DNA from: Bosea sp. BIWAKO-01
GTDB lineage: Bacteria; Pseudomonadota; Alphaproteobacteria; Rhizobiales; Beijerinckiaceae
Assembly (NCBI RefSeq): GCF_001748145.1
Contig: NZ_BCQA01000001.1
Coordinates: 2,754,501-2,818,500 of the forward strand
Direction of reading: 5' to 3'
DNA: 64,000 nucleotides
The position numbers were made by a program, and so were the translations under genes. The notes under the pieces were generated by a model, which was not told the DNA's origin, searched no databases, and saw only the letters and a program-made list of their open reading frames with translations. Shown piece after piece: positions 3,685 to 25,696 of this stretch (positions are counted from its first letter, which is position 1; each line of letters starts with the position of its first letter).

Positions 3685-4144
3685 TCCTGCTCCATTCGGC
3701 TCTTCGAGGCTCTTATGCCGTGTCAGGCGGCATGTCGGCGTTCCATGACCCGAAAGCAACCGGCGTGATTGCGGCTGGCCCATTGCTGCTCCCGTTGCGA
3801 CGAATCTAGCGCAATGGCAGCTGCCGGACAGTGGTGGCCCGGCTGGTCTCCCCTTCGCGTGCCGCAATCCGGGTGGTGTGGCGGGACGTCGCGATTATGC
3901 AACCGCACCAAGACGAGCGGGCTCCGCCCCGCCAGCCTCGGTCCCTGCAACTGCCGCCGGCTTCAAGGCCTACCAGGAGGCACAGGCAATGGTTGGTCTG
4001 GCATGGCCCGGTCTAGCCGCCCTCGGTTCAGGCACCGTACCCGGACCCCAAGAGGGGCTCTTCGATCTGGGCCTTCAGAATGGGGAGGCATCGCGACGGA
4101 AAGCGCCGCGAGCGGCGCCGTGGGTTTGACGGTTTGCTGCGTTG
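3685..4144. other. intergenic region without a recognisable gene
   Basis: A 460-bp stretch between divergently transcribed pepT and the Aap binding-protein gene. Short open frames exist on both strands, but none has a convincing ribosome site or a recognisable product. A small perfect hairpin (7-bp arms, 4103-4118) is the only structure seen. The region presumably holds the pepT promoter. Confidence 0.5.
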
Positions 4145-4154
4145 CTGTATACAG
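4145..4154. promoter_or_regulatory. GntR operator candidate upstream of aapJ
   Basis: The perfect palindrome CTGTATACAG lies 40 bp before the start of the binding-protein gene. It matches the core CTGTACACAG of the larger palindrome at 8944-8973 in front of the permease genes, differing only in the central dinucleotide. The TNGT-N-ACNA pattern is typical of operators of FadR-group GntR proteins, and a GntR gene lies at 5932-6618. The shared core in front of both transcription units is seen; binding is inferred. Confidence 0.5.
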
Positions 4155-4194
4155 GTAGATAGCTAAAACTTCCAGAGGGAAGAGGGGGATTGAT

Positions 4195-5238
4195 ATGGCG
4201 TTTCACGTGCTCCGCATGGCCTTGTCCGCGGCCGCTCTGCTTGCCGCTGCGCCGGGCGCACAGGCCGGCCCGGTCCTCGACAAGATCAAGCAGGACGGAA
4301 AGATCGTCTGCCTGGTCAATCCGAACTCACCCGGCTTCTCCGTCCCCGACAGCCAAGGCGCATTCCGCGGCTTCAATGTCGATTTCTGCCGCATGGCGGC
4401 GGCTGCCATCTTCGGCGATGGGACCAAGGCCGAGCTGCGCGGCATCGGGTTCTCCGACAGCCTGAAGGCGATCATCAGCGGCAGCGCGCATATTGCCTCG
4501 CGCGGCATTACCGCGACTGGCACCCGCGACGCCGATCCCGGCGTGTCCTTCGTGACGACCACCTTCTATGACGGCCAAGGCTTCATGGTGCCGAAGAGCC
4601 TTGGCATGACGAAGCTCGCTGATCTGTCCGGCGCAACCGTCTGTGCCGAAGAGGGCTCGACGACGCTGCTTTATCTCGCCGACTGGTTCGGCACGGCGAA
4701 GCTGCCCTACAAGGTTGAGAACATCGCTGACAAGACCGCACGCCTGCAGGCATTCTTCTCCGGAAAATGCGATGCGGTGGCGAGCTCGGTGTCGGCCCTG
4801 GCCGCCGATCGCCTGCTGGCACCGAAGCCGGACGATTACGTCATCGTTCCCCAACGTTCAGCCACCGAGCCGCTCGCCCTTGTGTCGCGCCCGGATACGG
4901 AGCTGGAGAAGACGCTGTTCTGGGGTGTCCAGATCATGGTCGCCGCCGAGGAATTCGGTGTCACCTCGCAGAATATCGACGCCAAGCTCGCCTCGCTCAA
5001 GGATCTGCCAGTCGACGAGCAACGGCTGATCTCCCCGACCGGGCCAACTGCCGACATGGCGAAGAAGCTTGGCCTGCGTTCCGACTGGAGCGCGCAGATC
5101 ATCAAGCAGGTCGGCAATTACGGCGAGGTTTTCGAAAAGCATATCGGCAAGGGCTCGCCTCTCGCCATGGACCGTTCAGCGTCTCCGAACCGCTTGGCCA
5201 GGGATGGCGGGCTGATCTTCGCGTTCCCCGTCCGCTAG
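4195..5238 (+). CDS. aapJ: Aap-type general L-amino-acid ABC transporter, periplasmic binding protein
   Basis: A 347-residue periplasmic solute-binding protein (family 3, AapJ branch). It has a signal peptide ending GAQA and then DKIKQDGKIVCLVNPNSPG, where Cys and downstream GFNVDFCRMAAAAIFGD are typical of AapJ. ATVCAEEGSTT and DWSAQIIKQVGNYGEVFE are further family blocks. A purine-rich GGGGGA ribosome site sits 8 bp upstream. It is transcribed away from the GntR and permease genes but shares an operator core with them, so it probably delivers substrate to the permeases at 6644-8943. The substrate is probably an L-amino acid; specificity is unknown. Confidence 0.88.
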   Translation: MAFHVLRMALSAAALLAAAPGAQAGPVLDKIKQDGKIVCLVNPNSPGFSVPDSQGAFRGFNVDFCRMAAAAIFGDGTKAELRGIGFSDSLKAIISGSAHIASRGITATGTRDADPGVSFVTTTFYDGQGFMVPKSLGMTKLADLSGATVCAEEGSTTLLYLADWFGTAKLPYKVENIADKTARLQAFFSGKCDAVASSVSALAADRLLAPKPDDYVIVPQRSATEPLALVSRPDTELEKTLFWGVQIMVAAEEFGVTSQNIDAKLASLKDLPVDEQRLISPTGPTADMAKKLGLRSDWSAQIIKQVGNYGEVFEKHIGKGSPLAMDRSASPNRLARDGGLIFAFPVR

Positions 5239-5274
5239 GCCGTCGTTCAGCCGCAGTGCAACTGCGTGTTCTTC

Positions 5275-5306
5275 TTCCGGCTCGCCGATCGCTTGGCGAG
5301 CCGGAA
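5275..5306 (+). terminator. hairpin downstream of aapJ
   Basis: Perfect 12-bp stem (TTCCGGCTCGCC with its complement) around an 8-nt loop, 37 bp after the aapJ stop codon. There is no run of T after it, so it may act as a transcript-stabilising 3' end rather than a classical intrinsic terminator. Confidence 0.55.
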
Positions 5307-5437
5307 TGCGTTCCGGCCCCGCCGTCGCCTGCTCTTCCAAGATTGCCGATGCCATTGTTCTGGACAGTTCCGCCCGATCTGCCTCTAGTCGGCACCGATC
5401 AGAACACGGGATCGGGCAAGGTTTGCGGGGGGCGGGC

Positions 5438-5956
5438 ATGGAGGAAGGGCCGGTATGGGTCACGGTCCGGGGGCATGCCGGAGCCGTGGGCATGTTGCCG
5501 CTGCCGGGGCTCCTCATCCTCCGGCGTGGCGAACGGACCATCGACGCGGATCAGCAGGAGCAGGTTCTCGACATTCTGAAGTCGAGGGGAACGACGCTCC
5601 TGGTCAGTCTCCTGGACCAGACGGAGTGCGATGCCGATGACAGCGAACATCTGCGACGCGCTGCGGAGCGGCGCGGGATTCGCCTCGTTCGCGCGCCTAT
5701 CCCGGACTTCTCCGCGCCGGACGAGACATTGGACTGGCCGCGGTTGGCCCAGGCGATCCTTGGCGAGCTAAGCTTCGGCCGCGGGGTCGCCTTCTGTTGT
5801 CTCGCCGGATATGGCCGCAGCGGCATGATGGCCGCGCGCGTGCTGATCGAGACCGGACTGCCGCCGCGGGATGCGATCGCCGCGGTGCGCGCGGTTCGGC
5901 CGGGCGCAATCGAAAGCGAGGCCCAGGTCTCCTACTTGCTATCGTCCTCGCCATAG
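5438..5956 (+). CDS. Dual-specificity phosphatase-like protein (first of two)
   Basis: A 172-residue protein of the cysteine-dependent phosphatase superfamily. The P-loop CX5R is Cys121-LAGYG-Arg127, followed by SGMMAARVLIETGL. The residue before the catalytic Cys is Cys, where most members have His. A candidate general-acid loop is IPDFSAPDE. There is no signal peptide, so it is cytoplasmic. ATG at 5438 follows a G-rich ribosome site; an upstream in-frame start at 5306 lacks one. Its 3' end overlaps that of gntR by 25 bp. A paralogue at 9025-9564 shares the IPD[F/Y]SAP loop and C-terminal GAIE..AQV.YL. The substrate is unknown; placement in an amino-acid uptake locus suggests a small phosphorylated metabolite or regulation of the transporter. 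Confidence 0.8.
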   Translation: MEEGPVWVTVRGHAGAVGMLPLPGLLILRRGERTIDADQQEQVLDILKSRGTTLLVSLLDQTECDADDSEHLRRAAERRGIRLVRAPIPDFSAPDETLDWPRLAQAILGELSFGRGVAFCCLAGYGRSGMMAARVLIETGLPPRDAIAAVRAVRPGAIESEAQVSYLLSSSP

Positions 5957-6618
5957 CGTGCGAGCAGCAATTCGAGATGCGCCGCATGCAGGCGAAACAG
6001 CTCCGATGCCGGCAGGCTTTCGGCCTTCTCGGCGGTCGCCGCGATTTCCTGCACGAGCAGGGCGCTCACGAGCCCCGGATCGGATTTCAGCCAGTTGACC
6101 CAGCTTCGCGCGATGCGGAAGAAAATCATGTCGTCCATCTGACGCAGCGCCTCGTCGCCGATCAAGGCGTTGCGCGCCTCGTGATGGGCGCGCCAGACAC
6201 CCCAGACCTCCTTGACGGGGGATATGTCACGCAGTCCCTCGGCCAGTGAGCGCAACCGCGCATAGTCGGACCTGAGCGAAGTCGGGAGTTGCAGCGGCAC
6301 GAGATCGGCGATCAGACCCGTCAGGCCGATGCGGAAACGCAGCATGTCGACAGCGTGATGATCGACATAGGACACGATCGTGCCGACGCCGTTTCGCGTC
6401 TCCGCGAGCTGTTCGTAGACAAGGCGCTGCAGGACCTGCCGGATCGGCGTGCGGCTGACGTGGAACTCCGCGGCGAGTGCCGCTTCGTGGATGACATGCC
6501 CTTCGTCATATTCACGCAGGCAGATGCGGTCGCGCACGATCTCGAAGATCACATCGTTGCGCGAGCGGACCATCTGGCGAAGCTGCTGCGCCTCGGGGCT
6601 GGTGAGTTCGATCGTCAT
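5932..6618 (-). CDS. GntR family regulator (FadR/FCD group)
   Basis: A 228-residue repressor-type protein. The N-terminal winged helix includes EGHVIHEAALAAEF followed by HVSRTPIRQVLQRL, the canonical GntR recognition helix. The C-terminal helical region matches the FCD effector-binding domain in length and in HHEARNALIGD and LHAAHLELL. It is the last gene of the aapQ-aapM-gntR unit, 25 bp after aapM. Palindromes sharing CTGT-N2-ACAG lie upstream of aapJ and aapQ and are its likely operators. The effector is probably the transported compound or a derivative. Confidence 0.88.
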   Translation of the reverse strand: MTIELTSPEAQQLRQMVRSRNDVIFEIVRDRICLREYDEGHVIHEAALAAEFHVSRTPIRQVLQRLVYEQLAETRNGVGTIVSYVDHHAVDMLRFRIGLTGLIADLVPLQLPTSLRSDYARLRSLAEGLRDISPVKEVWGVWRAHHEARNALIGDEALRQMDDMIFFRIARSWVNWLKSDPGLVSALLVQEIAATAEKAESLPASELFRLHAAHLELLLARYGEDDSK

Positions 6619-6643
6619 AGCTCTCCCTGTCGCAAGGCCGGTC

Positions 6644-7741
6644 TCAGCCGAGCTTGCCGGCGCCGTGCCCGAGTCGCCGCGCTCGTTCGGAGATCATCCA
6701 GCAGCAGAGGAAATAGAACAGCCCGATCGCAATGTTCGCCTCCAAAGCATAGGCCTGCCAGAGTGGATCGGCATATGCCATGCGGGCTGTCGAAAGCAAA
6801 TCATGCATGCCGACGATGGCGACGAGCGAGGTGTCCTTGAAGCTGCCGATAATCGTGTTCGTCATGCCGGGGATGGCCGTGCGCAAGGCCTGAGGCAGCA
6901 CGATCAGGCGGATGCGTTGCGCGGTGGTGAGGCCGAGGCTGGCACCCGCCTCGATCTGTCCCTTGGGCAGCGCCTGCAGCCCGCTGCGAATGTCCTCCGC
7001 GAAATAGGCCGCATAGAAGAGGGTCAGCACGATCAGGATGGCGGCGACGGGCTCTATGGTCGCGCCGCGCGTCAGCAGCAGCGGCAATACGAAAATGCCG
7101 GCGAACAAGACCGCGACCATCGGAATGGCGCGCACCGTCTCGATATAGGCGACGGCGGCAAGGTTCAGCGCGCGATGCTGCGACCAGCGAGCCAGCGCCA
7201 GCAGGATACCGAGCGGAAATGCTGCGGCCATCGTGAAGGCAGACAGGAACAGGATGAGGGGCAGGCCGTTCCAGCGGTGGGATTCGACGAAGGGCAGGCC
7301 AGCGAAGCCTCCGCGCAGAAGCAGGTAGGAGACCACTGCAGTGCCCACGACCATGCCTGCCCGGATCGCAAGCCTCATCGGAACCAGTGCAAAGACGAGG
7401 ATCGTCACGATGATCAGGCCGCTGGCGAGATGTGCGCGCCAGCGCTCGGCGGCCGGGTAGGTTCCGGTCAGGACGAGATTGGCCTTCTCGCTGAGAAATG
7501 CCCAGCAGGCTCCCGTGGCATTCAGACATTCGGCACGGCTTCCGGAAAACGGGACCGCGTCGAGCACCACCCAGGTCAGTGCGCTCCAGGCGAACAGGAC
7601 CAGAAGAGCGAGCGTGACGACGGTCAGCACCGTGTTCCACCAGCTCGAAAACAGATTCTGGCGGAGCCAGCCCAGGATGGGCGCGAGCCCCTTCCGGGGA
7701 GGGGCATTCGCGCGGGCGATCGTGTCGACTGTCAGCGTCAT
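6644..7741 (-). CDS. aapM: Aap-type amino-acid ABC transporter permease (AapM-like)
   Basis: A 365-residue inner-membrane permease of the HisM/AapM family. Several hydrophobic segments precede the EAA-loop region QIEAGASLGLTTAQRIRLIV, continuing into LPQALRTAIPGMTN, where the ATPase docks. The start at 7741 lies 2 bp after the aapQ stop, indicating translational coupling; an upstream in-frame start would overlap aapQ. It forms a heterodimer with AapQ. No ATPase gene (aapP) follows: the next gene is gntR. Confidence 0.88.
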   Translation of the reverse strand: MTLTVDTIARANAPPRKGLAPILGWLRQNLFSSWWNTVLTVVTLALLVLFAWSALTWVVLDAVPFSGSRAECLNATGACWAFLSEKANLVLTGTYPAAERWRAHLASGLIIVTILVFALVPMRLAIRAGMVVGTAVVSYLLLRGGFAGLPFVESHRWNGLPLILFLSAFTMAAAFPLGILLALARWSQHRALNLAAVAYIETVRAIPMVAVLFAGIFVLPLLLTRGATIEPVAAILIVLTLFYAAYFAEDIRSGLQALPKGQIEAGASLGLTTAQRIRLIVLPQALRTAIPGMTNTIIGSFKDTSLVAIVGMHDLLSTARMAYADPLWQAYALEANIAIGLFYFLCCWMISERARRLGHGAGKLG

Positions 7742-7743
7742 TC

Positions 7744-8943
7744 TCAGCGCGCCTTCAGCCGGAAGGCATGGTCGCACCAGTTCACCAAGGCCGAGATCAG
7801 CAGGTTCGCGATCAGGAAGAAGGCGGCCACGAGCGCCATCAGTTCGATCGGGCGAAATGTCTGATTCACCGACGTGCTCACGACGCTGAGCAAATCGGAG
7901 TATCCGATCGCCAGCGCGATCGAGGTGTTCTTCAGGAGGTTGGAGTACTGATTGCCGAGCGGCGGCGTGATGACGCGCAGTGCCTGGGGCAGCACGATGA
8001 GCCGCATCGTCTTCAGCCAGTCGAGGCCGAGCGCTTGTGCTGCCTCGCGCTGCCCGTGCGACGTGGCGATGATGCCGCCGCGCACGATCGCGCCGATCTG
8101 CCCACCGTGATAGACCGACAGGGCCGCCACAAGCGCGGTGAACTGCAAGGACAGGCTCACGCCCCCGGCGACATTGAACCCCGCCAGCTTCGGCACAGAC
8201 CAGATGACGTGGAGTGTCCCTGTCAGATCGAGCGCCGCGTAGAGGCCCGCCGCGGCAGCGACCACAGGCAGGAAGACCGGGCGGCGTTCACCCGTGCGGT
8301 CCTGGTGCAGCCGGGCGGCGCGCAGCCACAAGATGGCGCCTGCGAGCCAGAGGCAGGCTGCGATCGCAAGCGCCTGGCCGCCCTGCTCGATGATGGGCCA
8401 GGGCAGCACGAGACCGCGATTGCTCAGCATCGCGCCGAAGGGGCTGGTCCAGGCCGAGCGGATATGGGGCAGGCTGCGCACCATCGCGACATAAAGCGCG
8501 ATCACGATCAGCAGCTTCGGCAGATTGCGGAGCAACTCGACATAGGTGCGCGCCAACGTGCGCACGAGCCAGTTGGAGCTGGTCATGGCGATGCCGACGA
8601 ACAGCCCGATGCCGCTTGCCAGGACGAGGATGAGGGCCGCCGCGGCGAGGGTATTCAAGATGCCGACGAGCAGCACACGGGCGTAGGTGTCGCGGGGCGA
8701 ATAGCCGATCAGGCTTTCGCTGACATCGAAGCCCGCTTCCTGCCAGAGGAACGAGAAGTCGATTCCCATTCCCGCAGCCGCGAGGTTCGCAGAGACGTTG
8801 CGAGCCGCGAGGAGACCGAGAAGGGCGATCCCGAGCAATGTCGCCGCCGGCCAAAGCAGGGCCATGAGCCGCTCACGCCTCGTCCGTGGCGGAGGCGGCA
8901 TGGAACTCACTGCATTGGGCGGAGGGGCTGACATGGACTCCAT
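7744..8943 (-). CDS. aapQ: Aap-type amino-acid ABC transporter permease (AapQ-like)
   Basis: A 399-residue inner-membrane permease. It shows the long periplasmic insertion typical of AapQ, the segment LVRTLARTYVELLRNLPKLL and the EAA loop QREAAQALGLDWLKTMRLIV continuing into LPQALRVITPPLGNQYSN. Starts are possible at 8943 or 8934; a further upstream Met would lie inside the operator palindrome. Because the palindrome ends at the first base before the 8943 ATG, transcription must begin within or very close to it, so GntR binding would block initiation. It is first gene of the unit aapQ-aapM-gntR. Confidence 0.88.
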   Translation of the reverse strand: MESMSAPPPNAVSSMPPPPRTRRERLMALLWPAATLLGIALLGLLAARNVSANLAAAGMGIDFSFLWQEAGFDVSESLIGYSPRDTYARVLLVGILNTLAAAALILVLASGIGLFVGIAMTSSNWLVRTLARTYVELLRNLPKLLIVIALYVAMVRSLPHIRSAWTSPFGAMLSNRGLVLPWPIIEQGGQALAIAACLWLAGAILWLRAARLHQDRTGERRPVFLPVVAAAAGLYAALDLTGTLHVIWSVPKLAGFNVAGGVSLSLQFTALVAALSVYHGGQIGAIVRGGIIATSHGQREAAQALGLDWLKTMRLIVLPQALRVITPPLGNQYSNLLKNTSIALAIGYSDLLSVVSTSVNQTFRPIELMALVAAFFLIANLLISALVNWCDHAFRLKAR

Positions 8944-8973
8944 AGTGATATAGCTGTACACAGCTATATCACT
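8944..8973. promoter_or_regulatory. 30-bp perfect palindrome, GntR operator candidate
   Basis: Two perfect 14-bp arms (AGTGATATAGCTGT and its complement) around the central AC. It lies directly against the aapQ start and 52 bp before the divergent phosphatase gene, so one bound dimer could control both. The central CTGT-AC-ACAG matches the site before aapJ. Confidence 0.75.
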
Positions 8974-9024
8974 GAGTCAATTGATGGGCGTTGCGGGCCT
9001 TGCGCTCGGCCCGGAGGGGTCCGC

Positions 9025-9564
9025 TTGGACAAGTCAGCTTCGAAGCCAGCATCGATCATCGCGCTGCCCGGGATCGCCGGAAAGCTGGTGCTGGCCCCTT
9101 GTCCGGGATTGTGGCGAGGGCGCCCCTTGCCAGGCGCCGATCCCGTGCCGGCTCTCGCTCAGGATCTTGATCATCTCGCCAGGCTTGGAGCCGGCGGCCT
9201 CCTCAGCCTCGTCGAGGCGCATGAGCTGCCTTGCGAGACGAAGCGCTTCTCCGTGGCTGTCCGGGAGGCCGGACTGACGTGGGCCCATGCGGCCATTCCC
9301 GATTACAGCGCGCCGAGTGCAGCCTTCGTCGAGGACTGGCAGAGGCTTGCGCTGTTGCGTCGCCTCGCGGCGGGGGAGAACTGGGCCATCCATTGCAAAG
9401 CGGGGCTTGGGCGCACCGGGACGGTCGCGGCACTGCTGCTCATCGAAAGCGGCCTCGAAGCCGAGGCTGCGATCGCGAAAATCCGGCATGAACATGCAGC
9501 CGGCGCGATCGAGACGCCAGCGCAGGTCGAGTACCTGATCGCTCATGCGCGGTCTCGCATGTGA
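9025..9564 (+). CDS. Dual-specificity phosphatase-like protein (second of two)
   Basis: A 179-residue cytoplasmic cysteine phosphatase. The signature is complete: His123-Cys124-KAGLG-Arg130-TG, with candidate general acid Asp in IPDYSAPS. The chosen start is TTG at 9025 because GGAGGGG lies 6-7 bp before it. It is divergent from aapQ across the 30-bp palindrome, so it probably belongs to the GntR regulon. It resembles the phosphatase at 5438-5956 in the acid loop, the P-loop region and the C-terminus (GAIETPAQVEYLI), implying duplication. Substrate unknown. Unlike its paralogue it keeps the His before the catalytic Cys. Confidence 0.82.
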   Translation: MDKSASKPASIIALPGIAGKLVLAPCPGLWRGRPLPGADPVPALAQDLDHLARLGAGGLLSLVEAHELPCETKRFSVAVREAGLTWAHAAIPDYSAPSAAFVEDWQRLALLRRLAAGENWAIHCKAGLGRTGTVAALLLIESGLEAEAAIAKIRHEHAAGAIETPAQVEYLIAHARSRM

Positions 9565-9622
9565 AGCGGGCTGTCGCGGCGCGGGCGTGACCAAGAGGTG
9601 ACCGCCGGCGTTCGTCGATCTC

Positions 9623-10057
9623 TCAGGCTGGCTTCTCGTCTGCGAGCACGATTGCCGTCGTCAGGTCGGCGACATGCGGCATCGAGGCAATCTCGTCACG
9701 CACGGAGTTCAATGCCCGGGTCGTCTCCGCCTCGATCTCGGCGATGACGTCGATCTCGCCGCCGATCGAGTAGCACCGCCTGACCGCCGGGAGCACGGCA
9801 ATCCGATCGACCGTGTCGCGCGCCGGTGTCTTGGTGAGGCGGATGATCAGGAAGGCGCGGAATGCGTCGGCACCCGAACGGCCCTCCATGACGGTTGCCG
9901 TGTAGCCGCGGATGGTGCCGTCGGTCTCCATCTTGGCGATGCGCTCGCGCACGGAGCTGCGGGCGAGCCCGACGCTTCCGGCAATCGTCTTGATCGGCAG
10001 CCGCGCATTGTCCTGGAGCAGCCGCAGAATCTTCGCGTTCGTCTCGTCCATCGCCAT
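9623..10057 (-). CDS. Lrp/AsnC family regulator
   Basis: A 144-residue feast/famine regulator. The N-terminal helix-turn-helix is DETNAKILRLLQDNARLPIK followed by TIAGSVGLARSSVRERIAKM; the C-terminal RAM domain carries the effector-binding region through CYSIGGEIDVIAEIE. Start at 10057 or 10051; a more upstream Met at 10108 would add a tail unlike the family. It is divergent from the kinase/M23/lyase gene, 140 bp apart, and most likely controls that gene in response to an amino acid. Confidence 0.87.
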   Translation of the reverse strand: MAMDETNAKILRLLQDNARLPIKTIAGSVGLARSSVRERIAKMETDGTIRGYTATVMEGRSGADAFRAFLIIRLTKTPARDTVDRIAVLPAVRRCYSIGGEIDVIAEIEAETTRALNSVRDEIASMPHVADLTTAIVLADEKPA

Positions 10058-10151
10058 CAAGGGCTCGCAGATATCCGTGTGGCGGCCATAGCAGGTCGCT
10101 ACCGCCACAATGGCGGCAAAACCGCCGATTGGAGCAGCGCGGCCGCCACCG

Positions 10152-10170
10152 CATCAATGTCAGATTGATG
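10152..10170. promoter_or_regulatory. inverted repeat in the lrp / fusion-gene divergent region
   Basis: CATCAAT and ATTGATG, perfect 7-bp arms separated by 5 bp, 27 bp before the chosen start of the fusion gene. An AT-containing palindrome in a divergent Lrp promoter is a reasonable Lrp-type site. A second GC-rich repeat (CCGCCA/TGGCGG) lies at 10102-10116. Confidence 0.4.
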
Positions 10171-10197
10171 GCAGAGCGACAATTCGGAAAGCCTGCG

Positions 10198-13100
10198 ATG
10201 ACCTTCGTCAACCACCCACGCCCGACTTTCTCCCTCGACGAAGCGGCCGAGGTCCTGCGGGAGCGCTTCGGCCTTGTCGGCCGCCTTGATGGGTTGCCCA
10301 GCGAACGCGACCAGAATTTCGACGTATGCGCGGCCGATGGCCAGCGGTTCATCCTCAAGATCGTCAATGCGGCCGAGCCGCCCACCGCGATCGAGTTCCA
10401 GACCGCACTGCTCCGGCACGTCGAAATCAACGATCCAACCTTGCCGACACCGCGTGTCGTGCCGACGCGCGATGGGCTGGAGTTCGGCTTTTTGACGGGT
10501 CGCGGCGGCGAGCGTCACTGCGTCCGTCTCGTTACCTATCTCCCTGGCACGCCGCTCGCCGAAGTTGCCAAGACTCCGGAAACGCTGCGCGACATCGGGC
10601 GCGTCCTCGGGCAGCTCGACCGAGTGCTCGGCAGCTTCGGTCATCCCGGTGCGCATGTCGCCTTCGATTGGGAGATCCGCGAGACGCCGCGGGCGCGCCA
10701 GCGGTTGTCATATGTGGCCGATGCGGCGCAGAGGCGCTGCCTGGAGCAGGTGCTCGACACCTATGATTCCCGGGTCGCGCCGACGCTCCGGCGCCTGCGC
10801 CATGGGGTCATTCACAACGACGCCAATGACTGGAACCTGTTGGTCGCCGATCCCGAGAACGGCGCGATCGCGGGCCTCATCGATTTTGGTGACGCGGCCC
10901 ATTCGCCGCTCATCGCCGAGCTTGCCGTTGCCTGCACCTACGCAATGCTCGACGAGAAGAGCCCGATCGAAACAGCCGCCATGATTGCCGCAGGCTATCA
11001 CGCGGAGCTGCCGCTGCAGGATGCCGAGTTCGACATCCTGCTCGATCTAATCGCTGCGCGGTTGGCGGTCAGCGTGTCGATCTCGGCGACGCGCCATGCC
11101 GAAGCGCTCGAGAATCCCTATCTCCTCGTCAGCGAAAGGCCGGCCTGGAACCTCCTGGAGCGGCTCGGCAAAGTCGATCGCCGTATTGCCACGGCGATCC
11201 TGCGTAACGCCTGTGGCCTCGAGTCGACGCCCGGGGCCGGGCGCCTGCGGAGCTGGTTGGCGGCAAACCGCAAGACGCTGGCGCCGCTCATGCACCCGCA
11301 TCCGGCGCGCCAGCAGAAGCACGTGGTCGATCTCGGTAACCCCGAGGCGCCACTGGCACGGGCGAGCGCGGCGCAGGATCATGCTGCGGCCGACCGGGCC
11401 TATGCCGATCTGCAGAGGGAACACGGCTTTACGCTCGGCCTCGGACCGCATGGCGAACTGCGCACCGTCTATACGGCGCCCTTCTTCGACTCGACCCTGA
11501 TCGACGGCGCGCGCCGCAATATCCATCTCGGCCTCGATATCTTCGCGCCTGCGGGTACGCCGCTCTTCACCCCGCTGCCGGCAAAGGTGGTGGCGGCCAC
11601 GATCAATCCTGCGCCGCAAGATTATGGCGGGCTCCTGCTGCTCGAGCATGAGCCGGAGCCTGGCCTGCGCTTCCGGAGCCTCTGGGGTCACCTGGACCAT
11701 GCGTCGGTTCGCGAGCGCCGCGTCGGCGAAGAACTGCCGGCCGGCGCTTGGGTGGCGCGGCTTGGTGACTACGCAGAGAATGGCGGCTGGGCACCGCATC
11801 TTCATCTGCAGCTCGTCGCCTCGGATTATGATGACGTCAGCGTCATTCCGGGCGTCGGCGAGTCGGCCTTTCCTGGCGTCTGGAACGACCTCTTTCCTGC
11901 GCCCTATGATTTCGCGGGCCTGCCGCCGGAGACGTTCGACAGGACCGGGCAGGAGAAGGATGCCCTGCAGGCGGCGCGCAAGAAGCGGCTGGGCCCAAAT
12001 CTGTCGCTGTCCTATCGCAGGCCGCTCAAGATGGTTCGCGGCGAAGATGTCTGGCTGATCGACGAGAGCGGCCGAGCCCATCTCGATTGCTACAACAACG
12101 TCGCCCATATCGGGCATTGCCACCCGCGCGTGGTGGATGCGATCACGCGGCAGGCCCAGCGCCTCAACACCAACACGCGCTATCTCCACGACAACATCAT
12201 CGACTACACGGAGCGCCTGGCGAAGACGCTGCCGGGCGAGCTTGATACGTTCTTCGTGGTGTGCACAGGGAGCGAGGCAAACGAACTCGCGCTGCGCGCG
12301 GCCCGGGCCCATACGCGGCGACGCGACATGATCGTGCTGGACTGGGCCTATCACGGCCACACACAGGGTCTGATCGACATCAGCCCCTACAAGTTCAAGC
12401 GCAAGGGAGGCAGCGGGCGGCCGGAGCAGACGCATGTGCTGCCTGTCGCGGATCCCTATCGCGCACCGGCGGAGTGGCCGGAGGGCGAGATCGGCAAGCG
12501 CTACGGCGAGCATGCCTGCGAGATCATCGACCGGCTGGTGAAGGACGGGCATGCGCCCGCCGCCTTCATCGCCGAAACGATCCCAAGCGTCGCGGGGCAG
12601 GTCTTCCTGCCGCCGGGATATCTTGGTGCGATCTACGACGCCGTTCGTCGCGCCGGTGGCCTGTGCATCGCGGATGAGGTGCAGGTGGGCTTCGGCCGCG
12701 TGGGCCAATCGATGTGGGCCTTCGAGGAGCACGGCGTCGTGCCGGACATCGTCACCATGGGCAAGCCGATCGGCAACGGCCATCCCCTTGCCGTTGTCGC
12801 GATGCGCCGCGAGATCGCGGAGCGCTTCGCCAATGGCATGGAGTATTTCAACACGTTCGGCGGCAATCCCGTGTCTTGCGCGGCGGGGCTTGCCGTCCTC
12901 GAGGTGCTCGAAGACGAGCGTCTTCTGCCGAACGCCGTGGAGCAGGGAGACTATCTCCTCGCCGGCATGCGCAAGCTGATGGACCGCTATTCGGTCATTG
13001 GCGACGTGCGCGGGCGTGGCATGTTCCTCGGCCTTGAACTCGTGCGGGACCGCGCAACCAAGGAGCATGCCGGGGAACCCGCTTCGGCCATTGTCAATCG

Positions 13101-13245
13101 GGCCAGGGAGCTCGGCGTGCTGATGGGGACCGACGGCCCCTTCGACAACGTCATCAAGCTGCGCCCTCCCATGACTTTCCGGCGCGAGCATGCCGACATC
13201 CTGCTCGAGACCCTCGACGAGGCGATGCGCGACACGCTGGGCTGA
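10198..13245 (+). CDS. Three-domain protein: APH-fold kinase / M23 peptidase-like / class III aminotransferase-fold phospho-lyase
   Basis: A 1015-residue cytoplasmic fusion. Residues about 1-330 are an aminoglycoside-phosphotransferase-fold small-molecule kinase with catalytic HNDANDWN (His206, Asp208, Asn213) and IDFGD. Residues about 400-570 are M23-like, with His443-LGL-Asp447 and His534-L-His536 metal-ligand motifs intact. Residues about 590-1015 are a class III PLP enzyme with GSEANELALRAAR, Asp826 in IADEVQVGFGR and the PLP lysine Lys856 in MGKPIGNGHP. The GKPIGNGHP block resembles ethanolamine-phosphate and phosphohydroxylysine phospho-lyases, whose partner kinases in animals are APH-fold. 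A kinase plus beta-eliminating lyase acting on a hydroxylated amine is therefore likely. Start 10198 has GGAAAG 6 bp upstream; earlier starts do not. The role of the M23 part is unclear. Confidence 0.88.
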   Translation: MTFVNHPRPTFSLDEAAEVLRERFGLVGRLDGLPSERDQNFDVCAADGQRFILKIVNAAEPPTAIEFQTALLRHVEINDPTLPTPRVVPTRDGLEFGFLTGRGGERHCVRLVTYLPGTPLAEVAKTPETLRDIGRVLGQLDRVLGSFGHPGAHVAFDWEIRETPRARQRLSYVADAAQRRCLEQVLDTYDSRVAPTLRRLRHGVIHNDANDWNLLVADPENGAIAGLIDFGDAAHSPLIAELAVACTYAMLDEKSPIETAAMIAAGYHAELPLQDAEFDILLDLIAARLAVSVSISATRHAEALENPYLLVSERPAWNLLERLGKVDRRIATAILRNACGLESTPGAGRLRSWLAANRKTLAPLMHPHPARQQKHVVDLGNPEAPLARASAAQDHAAADRAYADLQREHGFTLGLGPHGELRTVYTAPFFDSTLIDGARRNIHLGLDIFAPAGTPLFTPLPAKVVAATINPAPQDYGGLLLLEHEPEPGLRFRSLWGHLDHASVRERRVGEELPAGAWVARLGDYAENGGWAPHLHLQLVASDYDDVSVIPGVGESAFPGVWNDLFPAPYDFAGLPPETFDRTGQEKDALQAARKKRLGPNLSLSYRRPLKMVRGEDVWLIDESGRAHLDCYNNVAHIGHCHPRVVDAITRQAQRLNTNTRYLHDNIIDYTERLAKTLPGELDTFFVVCTGSEANELALRAARAHTRRRDMIVLDWAYHGHTQGLIDISPYKFKRKGGSGRPEQTHVLPVADPYRAPAEWPEGEIGKRYGEHACEIIDRLVKDGHAPAAFIAETIPSVAGQVFLPPGYLGAIYDAVRRAGGLCIADEVQVGFGRVGQSMWAFEEHGVVPDIVTMGKPIGNGHPLAVVAMRREIAERFANGMEYFNTFGGNPVSCAAGLAVLEVLEDERLLPNAVEQGDYLLAGMRKLMDRYSVIGDVRGRGMFLGLELVRDRATKEHAGEPASAIVNRARELGVLMGTDGPFDNVIKLRPPMTFRREHADILLETLDEAMRDTLG

Positions 13246-13264
13246 AGCCACTGGTCGACGCACT

Positions 13265-13290
13265 CAGCAAGCGACGCGCGTCGCTTGCTG
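13265..13290 (+). terminator. 26-bp perfect palindrome after the fusion gene
   Basis: CAGCAAGCGACG, CG, then the exact complement, 19 bp after the stop codon. It would form a strong hairpin but no T run follows. Confidence 0.6.
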
Positions 13291-13445
13291 AAACAAGCCC
13301 GGCGGTGGGCAACCTCCGCCGGGGCAATCTTGGGGACGCCTGCGCAACCCGGCTGCGATGGCGAACGCGAATTCCCGCGCGAGACGCAGAAGACGGTGTA
13401 TCGGCGCCGTGGCAAAGAGGTGCTCGAGCGGTCCAGGATCTATCG

Positions 13446-13466
13446 AATTAGACAATGCTTCTAATT
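13446..13466. promoter_or_regulatory. operator candidate AATTAGA-N7-TCTAATT
   Basis: A perfect 7-bp inverted repeat in an AT-rich island 61 bp before the aminotransferase start. It contains ATTAG-N9-CTAAT, also found at 30259-30277, and the nine-base ATTAGACAA, also found on the minus strand at 22998-23006. The YheO-like regulator two genes on could be the binding protein; that is inference. Confidence 0.45.
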
Positions 13467-13527
13467 TGGACTTTTTTGTCTTCGCTCTCTGTGCTAGACA
13501 GCTCGAACCCGCGTTTGGACGAGCGTC

Positions 13528-14643
13528 ATGAAGATCGAAGAATTCACCCTGGAGCGGATCCAGTCGCTTTACGAGAACACCGTCGAGTTCAATCTCTCGG
13601 ATAGCGGCGTTCATCCCTACAGCCTGAACGGGCTGCTCGACGAGGGCCAGCGCAATGCTTTGCTCGATGTCGAACTGGGCTATGGCTGGACTAACGGGGC
13701 TGTCGAGTTGCGCGAAGCGGTGGCGCGGCTCTATCGCGGCCGGACATCAGACGAGGTCATCGTCACCAATGGCTCGGCCGAGGCCAATTTCCTGATGGTG
13801 ATGTCGCTGCTCGAGCCGGGCGACGAGATCGTCGTCTTCGTCCCGAATTACCTGCAGATCTGGGGCTGGGCCCGGGCGATCGGGGTCACGGTGAAGGAGG
13901 TTCCGCTGCGCGAGGAGCTCGGCTGGACCCCGGATCTCGACGATGTCCGCAAGGCCGTTTCGCCACGCACAAAGCTGATGACGATCTGCCACCCGAACAA
14001 CCCGACGGGCAGCCTGCTTTCGCGCGAGACGATGGACGGGCTCGTCGCGATCGCCCGCCAGAACGGCACCTATCTGCATGCCGACGAGGTCTACAAGGGT
14101 GCCGAGCTCGAGGGTAACGAGCCGCCCAGCTTCGCCGATCTCTACGAGAAGGCGATCATCACCAGCGGCCTGTCGAAGGCGATGGCCTTGCCGGGCCTGC
14201 GCATCGGCTGGCTGGTCGGCCCCACCGCCGATATCTACGCCGCCTGGCAGCGCAAGGACTATACCTCGATCACCACGAGCGCGATCAGCGAGTATGTCGC
14301 CCGCATCGTCGTCGAACCGGCCAAGCGCGCCGAGATCCTCCAGCGCAGCAAGACCATCCTGAGACAGAACCTGGCGCTCCTGACGAGCTGGGTCGAGCGC
14401 AACAGCGAGTTCTTCTCCTTCGTTCCGCCCAAGGCCGGCGGCATGGCCTTCGTGAAATATGCGCATTCGATGAACTCGACGGAACTCGTGCATCGGCTGC
14501 GCGAAGAACGGGGCATCATGCTCCTGCCCGGAGACGTCTACGGTCTCGACGGCTATATCCGTATCGGAATCGGGGCACCGGGCGACCACCTGGAGGCCGG
14601 TCTCGAACGCCTGAGCGACTATCTGAAGTCGCAGCCGCGCTAG
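13528..14643 (+). CDS. Class I/II PLP aminotransferase (first of two related copies)
   Basis: A 371-residue fold-type I PLP enzyme, cytoplasmic. NGSAEANF marks cofactor phosphate binding, PNNPTGS the conserved Asn loop, DEVYKGAE the Asp-Tyr pair, and SGLSKAMALPGLRIGW the internal aldimine lysine (Lys217). The N-terminus with VEFNLSDSGVHPYSL and GYGWTNG is distinctive and shared with the enzyme at 17673-18782 (VEINLTESGVHPWAI, GYGWTDG). It is followed by the regulator and cyclodeaminase homologue in one direction, probably an operon. The amino-acid substrate is not evident; lyase rather than transaminase activity cannot be excluded. Confidence 0.88.
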   Translation: MKIEEFTLERIQSLYENTVEFNLSDSGVHPYSLNGLLDEGQRNALLDVELGYGWTNGAVELREAVARLYRGRTSDEVIVTNGSAEANFLMVMSLLEPGDEIVVFVPNYLQIWGWARAIGVTVKEVPLREELGWTPDLDDVRKAVSPRTKLMTICHPNNPTGSLLSRETMDGLVAIARQNGTYLHADEVYKGAELEGNEPPSFADLYEKAIITSGLSKAMALPGLRIGWLVGPTADIYAAWQRKDYTSITTSAISEYVARIVVEPAKRAEILQRSKTILRQNLALLTSWVERNSEFFSFVPPKAGGMAFVKYAHSMNSTELVHRLREERGIMLLPGDVYGLDGYIRIGIGAPGDHLEAGLERLSDYLKSQPR

Positions 14644-14668
14644 ACCGGGGCTGCCAAGGACCTGGATC

Positions 14669-15286
14669 ATGCCGACCGAACTCATGGCCTATGCGCCGAT
14701 TTGCGACGCCGTCGCCCTGCTGTTCCGTCCCTATGCCGAGGTCGTGCTGCACGATCTCGGCTCGCAGACCGTGGTCCATATTGCCGGCAACTTCTCGCAG
14801 CGGGTCCTGGGCGAGCCATCGCTCCTGAACGAGATCGGTTTCGACGAGGCCGAGACGACGATCGGTCCCTATGAGAAGATCAACTGGGACGGCCGCCGGA
14901 TCAAATCGATCAGCGTCGTCCTCACCGCCAATGGCGCGGCGATCGGCGTGCTCTGCATCAATGTCGACGTCTCGCATTTCCACGCCGTGATGCAGACGCT
15001 CGGCGCGCTCGTCGCCGTGCCCGCCGGAGCCGACAAGCCGCCTGTCCTGTTCAAGGAGGATTGGCATGAGCGCATTAACGAATATGTCCAGCAATGGACG
15101 CAGGAGCGCGGCCTGATCGTGACCGCGCTGAGCCGCGAGCAGAAGCGGCAACTGGTGGCCGATCTTGCCGCGAGCGGCGCCTTTGGCGGGCGCAATGCCG
15201 CGGCCTATATCTCGCGGGTCCTCGGGCTCGCGCGCGCCACCGTCTACAACTACCTGAACCAGGCGAATGGACCGTCCGATGCTTGA
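14669..15286 (+). CDS. YheO/DauR-like regulator (PAS-like domain plus HTH)
   Basis: A 205-residue transcription factor. Residues about 1-115 match the YheO PAS-like sensor (YAPICDAVALLFRPYAEVVL, GPYEKINWDGRRIKSIS, GVLCINVDVS). The C-terminus is a helix-turn-helix ending in SRVLGLARATVYNYLNQ. The family includes DauR, which controls D-arginine catabolism. It sits 25 bp after the aminotransferase and overlaps the next gene, so it is probably an operon-internal regulator sensing the substrate of this pathway. Confidence 0.85.
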   Translation: MPTELMAYAPICDAVALLFRPYAEVVLHDLGSQTVVHIAGNFSQRVLGEPSLLNEIGFDEAETTIGPYEKINWDGRRIKSISVVLTANGAAIGVLCINVDVSHFHAVMQTLGALVAVPAGADKPPVLFKEDWHERINEYVQQWTQERGLIVTALSREQKRQLVADLAASGAFGGRNAAAYISRVLGLARATVYNYLNQANGPSDA

Positions 15287-16250
15287 TCTGGCACGGGCCC
15301 AGATCGAAGCCGCCATTGATCTCGACCGCGCCATCATGGCGCTGGAGGAGGGGTTCAAGGCTGCCTCGGCCGGACGGGTGCAGATGCCGCCCGTCGGCTA
15401 TCTCGGCTTTCCCGCGCATCACGGCGACTGCCACATCAAATTCGGACATATCACCGGGGATCCGATCTTCGTGGTCAAGATCGCGACCGGTTTCTACGAC
15501 AATCCGAGGCGCGGCCTGCCGACCAGCAGTGGCATGATGATCGCTCTCTCGGCCGAGACCGGCGCAGTCGTGGCGATCCTGCGTGACGAGGGTTGGCTGA
15601 CCGATCTGCGCACCGCGCTCGCCGGTGCCATCGCGACCAGGGCCGGAGCCCGCAATGACGCGCGCCGGATCGGCATTGTCGGTGCCGGCACGCAGGCCCG
15701 CTTCCAGATCCGCGCTGCGGCCCATCTCATGCGCGAACGGACGCCGGAATTCGCGATCTGGGCCCGCTCTGCGGAGCGCGCCGAGCTGGTGCAGGCGGAA
15801 CTGCTGGGCGAAGGCATAGCTGTTACCGTCGCGACCTCGCCCGAGGCTCTCTGTGCCGAGGCGGATGCCATCATCACCACGACGCCGGCCACGAGCCCCC
15901 TGCTCAAGGCAGCGTGGATCAGCCCCGGCACGCATATCACGGCCATGGGGGCGGATGCGCCAGGCAAGCAGGAACTCGAGAGCAGTCTGGTCGCGGCCGC
16001 CGATATCAGGATTGCCGATTCCCTCGATCAATGCCTCGACCACGGCGAATTCGCTGCCGCGTCCCGCGACGGATTGATCGAGCGCGGAGCTTGCGTCGAA
16101 CTTGGCGCGGTCCTTGCCGGACACGCAATCGGGCGCAACGACGCCCGCGACATCACGATTGCCGATCTGACCGGGCTTGCCGTTCAGGACATCGCGATCG
16201 CGCGAGTCGTTCTCGAAGGTCTCGACGCCTCACCGAGGCCGGGGGGCTGA
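15279..16250 (+). CDS. Ornithine cyclodeaminase / mu-crystallin family protein
   Basis: A 323-residue NAD(P)-dependent enzyme family that includes ornithine cyclodeaminase, alanine dehydrogenase and ketimine reductases. The N-terminal dimerisation half carries KIATGFYDN, PTSSGMMIALSAETG and LTDLRTALAG; the Rossmann half has GIVGAGTQARFQ and GTHITAMGADAPGKQEL. ATG at 15279 overlaps the preceding stop by 8 bp; an in-frame ATG at 15267 is equally possible. Context with aminotransferases and ArgH suggests an ornithine- or arginine-derived substrate, or reduction of a cyclic imine. Confidence 0.87.
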   Translation: MLDLARAQIEAAIDLDRAIMALEEGFKAASAGRVQMPPVGYLGFPAHHGDCHIKFGHITGDPIFVVKIATGFYDNPRRGLPTSSGMMIALSAETGAVVAILRDEGWLTDLRTALAGAIATRAGARNDARRIGIVGAGTQARFQIRAAAHLMRERTPEFAIWARSAERAELVQAELLGEGIAVTVATSPEALCAEADAIITTTPATSPLLKAAWISPGTHITAMGADAPGKQELESSLVAAADIRIADSLDQCLDHGEFAAASRDGLIERGACVELGAVLAGHAIGRNDARDITIADLTGLAVQDIAIARVVLEGLDASPRPGG

Positions 16251-21241: not shown

Positions 21242-22006
21242 TCACTTCAGGACCGCTTTGATAAAGTTCTGTGTCCGGGGGTGCTGCGGATCGACGAGGA
21301 TGGCGCCGGGGGCACCTCGTTCGACGATGGCGCCCTGATCCATGAAGACGACATGGTCGGCGACCTCGCGGGCGAAGGCGAGTTCATGCGTCACCACGAT
21401 CATGGTCATTCCGGAGCGCGCCAGATCGCGCATGACGTTCAGGACTTCGCCAACCAGTTCGGGGTCGAGCGCCGATGTCGGTTCGTCGAAGAGCAGCAGC
21501 TTCGGCCGGATCGCCAGCGCGCGGGCGATCGCGACGCGCTGCTGTTGGCCGCCGGAGAGTTCGCTGGGATAGTTGAAGCGCTTATCGGCGAGACCGACCC
21601 TTTCAAGCAGCATCACTGCTTCCTTCTCGACCTCGCGCCGCGGCCTGCCCTGCACCTTGATCGGCCCGAGCATCACGTTTTGCAGTGCCGTCAGATGCGC
21701 GAACAGGTTGAAGCGCTGGAAGACCATGCCGGTCATCAGCCTTTGCCGGGCGATCTCCTTGTCGGCGAGCTCCAGCAGGTGCTGTTTGGCGCGGTGATAG
21801 CCGATGAGCTCGCCGTCGATGACGATCGCGCCGGAATCGGGGCGCTCGAGCTGGTTGATGCAGCGCAGGAACGTGCTCTTGCCTGAGCCCGAGGGGCCGA
21901 TGATGCAGGTCACCTCGCCGCGCGAGACCGCAAGCGAGACGTCCTTCAGCGCTGCGAATGTTCCGAAGACCTTGTTGACGCCGGCGGCGCGGACCATCTC
22001 GTTCAT
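21242..22006 (-). CDS. Polar amino-acid ABC transporter ATPase (GlnQ/HisP type)
   Basis: A 254-residue nucleotide-binding subunit. Walker [11 protein letters not shown]-loop in [10 protein letters not shown], signature [15 protein letters not shown], Walker [13 protein letters not shown] and the switch His in VVTHE are all present. Starts at 22015 (GTG) or 22006 (ATG) are possible just after the permease stop; ATG is chosen. It energises the permease at 22017. In principle it could also serve the ATPase-less Aap permeases earlier in the window, but nothing shows this. Confidence 0.92.
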
Positions 22007-22016
22007 GATGGCCACT

Positions 22017-24052: not shown

Positions 24053-24373
24053 CTATGGCGCCGATACCGTGATGCGGCCCTTCATGTTGGGGTGGAAGCG
24101 GCAGTAATATTCGACCGTTTCCGCCTTCTGCAGGACCAGACTCGTCGATTTCTTCGGCTGGATCATCACGTCCATTCCACCCTTCACGGTCGCGGTATGG
24201 GCGAGAATGTCCTTGTTGAGCCACTCGACCGTGTCCCCGACCTTCACGGTGATCTCCGCGGGCGAAAACACCAGCCTGTCGATCGAAACCTGCATGGTCT
24301 CCGCCCGCGCCGTGACCGTGCCCAGAATCAGCGGCAGTCCGGCAACGGTCCAGAGGCGCTGCTTCAACGACAT
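24053..24373 (-). CDS. Cupredoxin (amicyanin/pseudoazurin-like blue copper protein)
   Basis: A 106-residue secreted copper protein with a signal peptide ending TARA. The type 1 copper site is complete: His59 in LAHTA, then Cys91, His94 and Met97 in YYCRFHPNM. FSPAEITVKVGDTVEW is the usual cupredoxin strand pair. Start at 24373 has GAGGGCAAG upstream and lies 10 bp after the DUF4142 gene. It probably carries electrons in the periplasm. Confidence 0.88.
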   Translation of the reverse strand: MSLKQRLWTVAGLPLILGTVTARAETMQVSIDRLVFSPAEITVKVGDTVEWLNKDILAHTATVKGGMDVMIQPKKSTSLVLQKAETVEYYCRFHPNMKGRITVSAP

Positions 24374-24383
24374 GATCTTGCCC

Positions 24384-24908
24384 TCACCGGAGTTCGGCAG
24401 CGACATGTGCGGCGTGCTGCTCGTGGCCCTGGAAAAGCTTCAGGCCGGTTTCGAGCAGGCCCTTCAATTCGCTGTTGCTTGCCGAGGGGATCAGCAGCGT
24501 CTGGAGGGCGCCGTTCACCTGCTTGTGGTAGGCCACCTCGTTATCGACATAGGCCTTGTCGAAGGCTGCGCCCTGGAGTTTCGAGAGCTTGCTCCGCTCG
24601 GCCGTCGCGGCCTGAGACAAGCTGCGGCTGGTATCGTTGTCTTCAGGGCTGACCTTCAGCTTCTTCACTAGGTCGAGTGCCTGCTTGTTCACCGCTTCAT
24701 GGTCGCGGACCATGTCATGGGCAAAGGCTATGACGGTCTTGTTCCTGGATTTCGCAATCGCCTGCTTCGCCGCCTCGACGTCGATCGTGCCGGCGGTGTA
24801 GGCAATGTGCGCGATCTGCGGATCGGTCGGCGTGTCGGCGGCCTGCGCCAAGGACACCGTGCCGAGGAGTGAAAGTGCGGCCAATGCCGTGTTCTGTCGC
24901 GTGAACAT
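24384..24908 (-). CDS. DUF4142 (ferritin-like) periplasmic protein
   Basis: A 174-residue protein with a signal peptide (LAALSLLGTVSLAQA). The mature part is almost wholly helical, with the DUF4142 pattern FAHDMVRDHEAVNKQALDL, AFDKAYVDNEVAYHKQVNGA and LKLFQGHEQHAAHV. The family has a ferritin-like four-helix bundle, and the His/Glu residues listed could bind metal. Its function is not established. It is co-directional with the sigma factor and cupredoxin, suggesting a periplasmic stress response. Confidence 0.85.
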   Translation of the reverse strand: MFTRQNTALAALSLLGTVSLAQAADTPTDPQIAHIAYTAGTIDVEAAKQAIAKSRNKTVIAFAHDMVRDHEAVNKQALDLVKKLKVSPEDNDTSRSLSQAATAERSKLSKLQGAAFDKAYVDNEVAYHKQVNGALQTLLIPSASNSELKGLLETGLKLFQGHEQHAAHVAAELR

Positions 24909-25003
24909 GGAACCTCCTTCGCCTGACCGCTGAATTGCTTCAGGCCTTGTCTTTCGATTGACGAACATTGGATGCCGCGGGATCGAAAACGTTCCCGGAT
25001 CGA

Positions 25004-25696
25004 TCAGGAAAAGCCGAGCCGCTTCATCACCGCGTCGGTCAGGCGCTCGCAGCGCCGGCCGGCAAATGGAAAGGCGTCGAGCAGGACGGGACCGATCTGT
25101 TCGTCCAGCTGCTTGCGCAGGAGATGTCTGGCCCGATGCAGGCGGGTCTTGACGGTCTCGGGCCGCAGATCGAGCAGCTCCGCCGTTTCTTCGACACTCA
25201 GGCCTTCGATCACCCTGGCGATGAAGACCGAGCGATAGGTGTCGGGAAGATTGTCGGTTGCCCGCTCGACGAGTTGAAGGATCTGTCGTTGCGCCATGGC
25301 CCGCTCTGGATCGTCACAGCTGGTGTTGCAGGGAAACGGAATGATCTGCGCCGCAGCGCTCCGATCGGTCGATCTCGCGAGTTCGATCTCTTGCCGGCTC
25401 CTGCGCAGGCGCCCGAGTGCTTCGTTGATGACGATGCGGGACAGCCATGTGGCAAGAGAGGAATCTCCGCGAAAGCTCTCGAGATGAGTGAAGGCCCGGA
25501 CATAAGCCTCCTGCACAACATCCTCGGCTTCGCTACCATTGCGGACGATTCCCCGGGCGATACGGTAGAGCCGCTGATTATACGTCCGCATGATCGTGCG
25601 GAATGCATCACCGTCGCGCGCGACCGCCCGGCGCACCAGGTCGAGGTCGTTGAGAATCGAGGCCTCGTCGTGTGTGTCTCTTCGAACCTGTGGCAT
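25004..25696 (-). CDS. ECF-type RNA polymerase sigma factor
   Basis: A 230-residue sigma factor. Region 2 is RTIMRTYNQRLYRIARGIVR through EAEDVVQEAYVRAFTHLESF; region 4 is LPDTYRSVFIARVIEGLSVE followed by ETAELLDLRPETVKTRLHRA. Start ATG at 25696 follows AGGGAGGAAGCC; upstream extensions to 25870 lack this. There is no adjacent anti-sigma gene. The DUF4142, cupredoxin and patatin genes that follow on the same strand are probably its operon or targets. Confidence 0.9.
   Translation of the reverse strand: MPQVRRDTHDEASILNDLDLVRRAVARDGDAFRTIMRTYNQRLYRIARGIVRNGSEAEDVVQEAYVRAFTHLESFRGDSSLATWLSRIVINEALGRLRRSRQEIELARSTDRSAAAQIIPFPCNTSCDDPERAMAQRQILQLVERATDNLPDTYRSVFIARVIEGLSVEETAELLDLRPETVKTRLHRARHLLRKQLDEQIGPVLLDAFPFAGRRCERLTDAVMKRLGFS

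Follow-up and report, generated by a model that had tools for sequence, protein, structure and literature searches.

Locus anatomy and the two phosphatases

Six adjacent genes for parts of an amino acid-type ATP-binding cassette (ABC) importer, a GntR-type regulator, and two small cysteine phosphatases form the subject of this analysis. They lie in the window, by which we mean the whole 64,000-nucleotide stretch analyzed (G000:C1:2754501-2818500 of the 7.33-Mb genome of Bosea sp. BIWAKO-01). On the forward strand, an aapJ-type solute-binding protein gene (4195..5238; 347 amino acids; Pfam SBP_bac_3; a distinct clade) is followed by the phosphatase gene P1 (5438..5956, ATG at 5438; 172 amino acids). 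The reverse strand carries gntR (5932..6618; 228 amino acids), an aapM-type permease gene (6644..7741, its ATG at 7741 being the gene caller's choice), and an aapQ-type permease gene (7744..8943), both permeases matching Pfam BPD_transp_1. The aapQ start is uncertain, with ATG 8943, 8934, or 8865 or GTG 8961 as candidates. P1 and gntR converge, and their 3' ends share 25 bp (5932-5956). The second phosphatase gene, P2 (9025..9564, forward strand; 179 amino acids), diverges from aapQ and probably starts at the TTG at 9025, which is preceded by GGAGG. An earlier note on this DNA had described paralogous CX5R phosphatases bracketing the permease/gntR unit and a 30-bp palindrome between P2 and aapQ. 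Both descriptions hold: the two phosphatase open reading frames, on the forward strand, flank the aapJ/gntR/aapMQ span, and the palindrome (8944..8973), a putative GntR operator, is exact and abuts the likely aapQ start.

Read by eye, a putative aapJ promoter with a GntR operator spans 4126..4154 on the forward strand (TTGACG at 4126-4131, 16 bp, TATACA at 4148-4153); its operator core GCTGTATACAG at 4144-4154, before aapJ, holds the TATACA. A putative P2 promoter (-35 TGGACT at 8934-8939, -10 TACACA at 8957-8962), likewise read by eye, has its -10 element overlapped by the palindrome, and the palindrome core overlaps -10-like hexamers of both aapJ and P2. A consensus promoter scanner listed no promoter in 3900-10200.

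P1 and P2 score 32.0 and 52.7 bits, respectively, against Pfam PF22785 (cut-off 27) and carry the Cys-X5-Arg-[ST] P-loop (CLAGYGRS within FCCLAGYGRSG in P1, CKAGLGRT within IHCKAGLGRTG in P2). They are paralogues with 38% identity over query residues 12-176 (E 4.8e-19), and apart from these two the genome has no match to P2 at E <= 0.01. The CX5R loop is kept in 22 P1-family, 21 P2-family, and 3 plasmid second-slot rows, and the general-acid Asp of the acid loop shows no variation in two alignments, of 29 and 27 rows. The residue preceding the catalytic Cys is His in P2 and Cys in P1, and 16 of the 22 P1-family rows have Cys, Ser, or Thr in place of this His. No signal peptides are visible on the CX5R phosphatases of the module. 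The motifs IPD[FY]SAP and GAIE..AQV.YL, previously noted as shared by the two proteins, are present in both but are not specific to them; since the archaeal structure 5z5b has IPDFTAP and GAVET.EQ, they mark the fold, and we no longer regard them as the mark of a special pair. P1 and P2 resemble small CX5R dual-specificity/tyrosine phosphatases (PF22785 Tc-R-P, PF22784 PTP-SAK, Tk-PTP 5z5b) in the CX5R loop, the acid-loop Asp, and GA[IV]E, and differ from them in having an importer as genomic partner and in the frequent replacement of the His before the catalytic Cys in the P1 family. The database name 'phosphatase domain-containing putative toxin' found no support in the genomic context.

Recurrence of the module and its regulatory sites

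Counted from the importer side, the association of these phosphatases with the importer was without exception. A search with the AapJ of the window at E <= 1e-40 gave matches in 140 of 150 related genomes, only 11 of them of module type: ten Bosea genomes at 83-100% identity and G149 at 62%, the next rows listed reaching at most 44%. The L139 AapJ, from another family, used at E <= 1e-95, matched in 10 of 397 genomes of the order, in 3 of 385 of the class, and in four plasmid records at 60% identity or above. Together, this yielded 24 distinct loci, comprising ten in Bosea, G149, eight more in the order, G189 and G482 in the class, and three on plasmids, with UR115 counted once, as G189. At least one CX5R phosphatase, recognized by profile or annotation, lies in or adjoins the unit in 24/24 loci, tying phosphatases of the P1/P2 fold to the importer in every one. 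Sixteen loci (ten Bosea, G541, G189, G482, and the three plasmids) have two, and eight have one, either P1 type (G149, G704, G738, G794, G830) or P2 type (G604, G731, G761). The plasmids are those of Ensifer sp. PDNC004, Shinella zoogloeoides, and Roseateles sp. XES5 (an 'unverified organism' record), and their P1-type phosphatase is a gene annotated as 'hypothetical protein' (profile E about 1e-44). As a control, at least 12 AapJ-like genes were counted in the genome of the window, where 14 of 34 candidates were scored, and phosphatases occur at the module locus only.

Gene order is constant in the ten Bosea module loci, with the same six genes arranged as J-P1, GntR-M-Q on the opposite strand, and P2. 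Other lineages are arranged differently: UR115 has Q-M-J-P1 with P2 divergent and GntR tail to tail, and Roseibium has Q-M-J-ATPase-P2 with GntR opposite and P1 beyond. The plasmid trio has J-P1-GntR-phosphatase-Q-M on one strand, the second phosphatase overlapping gntR by 4 bp and lying within about 20 bp of aapQ, which comes next. Across Bosea, the module has a patchy distribution (10/67 genomes, including that of the window). The claim that the phosphatases are part of a GntR-controlled uptake locus withstands the check that the earlier note had set for it, the neighborhood recurring in other Hyphomicrobiales and beyond and the operator overlapping the putative P2 promoter; the original observation is confirmed as real, and is stronger than first claimed. 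A literature search of open-licence PMC papers found no description of such an importer-phosphatase module.

The regulator matches the GntR helix-turn-helix (HTH) domain (PF00392, 52.7 bits, cut-off 27); the GntR proteins of the window, L203, and L075 have no Pfam match other than the HTH (E 0.001), so we do not class the regulator with the FCD subfamily. In all ten Bosea module loci, gntR is present and the operator core occurs at both the aapQ/P2 junction and before aapJ. Exact copies of the palindrome core GCTGTAYACAGC occupy 19 places in 11 Bosea genomes, of which 18 belong to the module locus, and its backward control pattern gave five strand matches in total. In the window, GCTGTAYACAG with at most one mismatch had four matches (two places, both strands) against 0.40 expected, a number reached by 0/100 shuffles. 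Across families, TGTAYACA sites accompany 21/21 module loci with gntR and 0/5 without it (26 module loci), with a density of 40 sites in 123 kb inside module loci versus 3 in 331 kb outside. The plasmid trio has one site each, before aapJ, and Roseibium has one site 35 bp upstream of P2. These patterns suggest that GntR binds the TGTAYACA sites. The anatomy and co-regulation of the module are well supported; that GntR is what controls both pump and phosphatases we infer from the distribution of its predicted sites. A comparable arrangement is described for the FCD-type GntR protein Atu1419, which binds ATGTATACAT overlapping -10 boxes (PMC7797058); the operator core TGTATACA of the module likewise lies over putative -10 boxes. 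The Streptomyces coelicolor HypR motif is CTNTGC(A/C)ATGTCAC, which differs from the module operator (PMC6608401). In the module GntR, unlike Atu1419 and HypR, only the HTH is recognized by Pfam.

Phosphatase lineages and loci that retain only P2

A contig scan starting from the phosphatase gave 329 relatives, from which we retained 80 loci. It added the module carriers L154 and L160 (Roseibium), L158 (a Rhodovibrionaceae metagenome-assembled genome), L104, and L119; the remaining relatives among the kept loci had no Aap genes near, except L167 (39% AapJ match). P1 proteins form a single clade, with 22/22 rows from module loci (support 99/97; 100/96 with 20 rows). Bosea P2 and the single P2-type rows form a clade in one tree (100/99), and in a different tree Bosea P2 stands apart from the single P2 rows, beside a long branch. 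A second P2 clade (100/99) holds UR115, Roseibium, L142, L158, and L193, together with L141 and L161, which lie at contig ends, and L170, where no module was seen. Yet another kind is the second phosphatase of the plasmid trio, which is 56-63% identical to standalone Bosea phosphatases (L084-L087). The trees leave the deeper relations of these groups, including that of Bosea-type to UR115-type P2, unsettled, so at least two lineages, and perhaps three, have supplied the phosphatase of the second slot. That single-phosphatase modules keep either a P1- or a P2-type protein suggests overlapping roles.

Two observations on relatives outside the modules may be added. The standalone Bosea phosphatases in L084 (2376-10051), L085, and L086 stand directly behind genes for a polyhydroxybutyrate depolymerase-like protein, a PTA_PTB phosphotransacylase, and an acetate kinase. 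These genes place a relative of the second phosphatase in the context of small acyl-phosphate molecules. In the plasmid matches H17 and H22 (Cereibacter, Fuscovulum), the P1-like sequence falls within a feature annotated as 'ADP-ribosylglycohydrolase family protein', possibly a domain fusion.

At a site whose flanks agree between Bosea genomes, the full module is present in G012, G030, G045, and G052, and P2 only in G018, G021, G022, G056, and G060. These last five genomes lack aapJ, aapM, aapQ, gntR, and P1, with no GntR match at E <= 1e-10, and have an intact P2 with its catalytic loop kept and a pairwise dN/dS of 0.17-0.32 in the 10 pairs among them. G018 has kept roughly 270 bp from the 5' end of aapQ along with a 38-bp palindrome that shares the core, so its state is a deletion. 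In the other four genomes, where the gap starts roughly 125 bp upstream of aapJ and ends past the operator, module loss is the inferred direction. One tree places the P2-only rows within the module P2 rows (84/86, 93/84), and another leaves them unsettled. P2 thus seems to work without the pump and is not solely a switch for it, which weakens, for P2, the earlier proposal that the phosphatases switch the transporter.

Importer ligand and possible roles of the phosphatases

The importer parts are those of a HAAT-type (Aap) system, comprising an SBP_bac_3 binding protein, which matches the amino acid-binding protein 4z9n in the PDB (E 1.8e-60), and BPD_transp_1 permeases. The same type of binding protein and two permeases occur in the general L-amino acid permease AapJQMP, from which the module differs in its separate AapJ clade, its mostly missing ATPase gene, and its built-in gntR and phosphatases; one ordinary aapJQMP locus inspected, from Azospirillum, had no annotated phosphatase. 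Identity to the window AapJ is 57-99% inside the module clade and 37-41% for other AapJ rows, and 35 alignment positions separate 17 module rows from 12 others. Module AapJ keeps the Arg of the TRD motif, which we take to bind a carboxylate, as in related proteins. At position 89, 17/17 module rows have Ser and 12/12 others have an Arg that presumably binds an anion, judging from related binding proteins; Arg82 and Arg183 are new and invariant in module AapJ. Judging from these substitutions, module AapJ probably binds something other than an ordinary amino acid. No ATPase gene lies inside the unit in the window or in the other nine Bosea module loci, the nearest GlnQ-like ATPase gene in the window being at 21242-22015; Roseibium L154 and L160 do carry one in the module.

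We tentatively favor, with nearly even confidence, a private GntR regulon for the uptake of an unusual compound and its dephosphorylation in the cytosol, with P1 and P2 as the metabolic enzymes of the module. AapJ, AapQ, and AapM, together with GntR and one or two phosphatases, would form a self-contained uptake unit that has passed from one genomic context to another and would presumably borrow an ATPase mostly not encoded in it. GntR would bind the TGTAYACA sites over the -10 regions and let go when the ligand or its product appears, so that pump and phosphatases would be made together. The phosphatases would then strip the phosphate off the compound taken up, or off a version of it that is phosphorylated in the cytosol. 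A single phosphatase would suffice in some lineages, and P2 would serve a wider use, because of which it would be kept without the pump. A bolder version, possible but rather doubtful, is a dedicated import-and-dephosphorylate system in which the importer would take up an amino or hydroxy acid, phosphorylated or able to accept phosphate, that is not known to nourish bacteria, the phosphatases would be catabolic, and the regulator would control nothing else. A functional analogy is offered by agrocinopine uptake, in which the AccA importer is reported to be paired with the cytosolic phosphodiesterase AccF (PMC4526662, PMC7356202). There, as proposed for the module, an importer is combined with a phosphohydrolase for an imported phospho-compound; the proteins are others and the ligand is known, and we take the likeness as analogy, not as kinship.

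Several points weigh against uptake coupled to dephosphorylation. Both the importer ligand and the substrate of P1 and P2 are putative. The expected anion-binding residue of AapJ is lost at position 89, the new Arg82 and Arg183 may lie outside the binding pocket, and Bosea module AapJ has Ser at the Asp expected to bind the alpha-amino group, an Asp that the ordinary AapJ row L174 also lacks. Pairwise dN/dS among the P2-only genomes (0.17-0.32, 10 pairs) cannot date the constraint on P2 exactly, and the flanks differ between module loci. Close to 56 non-module phosphatase relatives, ABC ATPase genes reach no higher density (8 in 313 kb) than further away (15 in 583 kb). A transporter link for the whole phosphatase family was therefore rejected, and since the non-module relatives, L167 excepted, also have no Aap genes near, the importer link is specific to the module. 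Cysteine phosphatases of the P1/P2 fold are usually read as protein-signaling enzymes, and the best-matching solved structures carry protein-phosphatase names (Tk-PTP [5z5b], DUSP23, PRL, KAP).

These names equally speak for the main rival, a regulatory circuit in which the phosphatases act on a protein, be it a subunit of the pump, the ATPase that it borrows, or a phosphotransferase system-type regulator, and so tune uptake. Such a circuit would fit an ATPase that is mostly outside the module and could be shared, putative operator-controlled promoters common to phosphatases and pump, and the close packing of gntR, second phosphatase, and aapQ in the plasmid trio. It is somewhat unlikely, however, given that P2 is intact in the five Bosea genomes without pump and gntR, that no kinase recurs in the module, and that the flank comparison gave generic families only. 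House-cleaning, in which the phosphatases clear a phosphorylated by-product formed by unrelated kinases acting on the imported compound and are protective rather than catabolic, would explain the co-regulation, the interchangeable single P1- or P2-type phosphatases, and the retention of P2 without the pump; the by-product is hypothetical, though, and no kinase family recurs in the flanks of the 20 loci compared, and we consider this improbable. The earlier note had also pointed to an intermediate of the neighboring kinase/phospho-lyase. A kinase-M23-phospholyase fusion (PRK06148, above cut-off; 10198-13245) with kinase and class-III aminotransferase domains does adjoin P2, and the phosphatases might act in its pathway together with Lrp, but its orthologue stands beside the module in only 3/10 Bosea loci. 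Three more of these, L063, L067, and L068, have nothing beyond matches of about 30% to class-III aminotransferases at a greater distance, and the non-Bosea module loci that were examined have none. This pathway was rejected as highly improbable.

If a dedicated import-and-dephosphorylate system does exist, it would represent a metabolic use of the tyrosine-phosphatase fold that spreads as a cassette, partly on plasmids. Identifying the ligand of AapJ and the substrate of P1 and P2 would reveal either a new phosphorylated nutrient or a new control of ABC uptake, and the module, being small and having its own regulator and operator, is directly testable.

Flanking genes gave few clues to the ligand. 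In a comparison of 20 loci, the families that recurred were all generic (ABC ATPases in 5 loci, short-chain dehydrogenases/reductases in 4, aldehyde dehydrogenases in 3, others in 2-3), and reading the ligand from them was abandoned. A cis-3-hydroxy-L-proline dehydratase gene (L195, 5679-8054; NF051439, above cut-off) lies 108 bp behind a P1-type phosphatase on the same strand, L201 has a 4-hydroxyproline epimerase gene 5 kb off, and L196 and L119 have a galactarate dehydratase gene near. Hydroxyproline as ligand was set aside, with two suggestive loci only and no matching operator in the available passages of the HypR papers. In L113, L134, and L145, near 10000-13400, P2 relatives adjoin the PhnU2/PhnT2 genes of a putative 2-aminoethylphosphonate importer; L113 and L145 have flanking genes in common. 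We consider this link weak and set it aside: the Phn genes of L077 are further off, and L132 has the same immediate flanks as L077 but not the Phn cluster seen there.

Next to the module in the window, the region 10198-16250 is a separate block, common to L061 and L062, with the PRK06148 fusion, a pyridoxal phosphate enzyme whose nearest models (PRK07324, GntC/VioD) are below cut-offs, and an ornithine-cyclodeaminase-like gene. Further along, at 24053-25696, three genes, cupredoxin-like, DUF4142-like, and extracytoplasmic function sigma-like as judged by eye, follow one another, relatives of which stand beside P2 in L067, L070, and L072.

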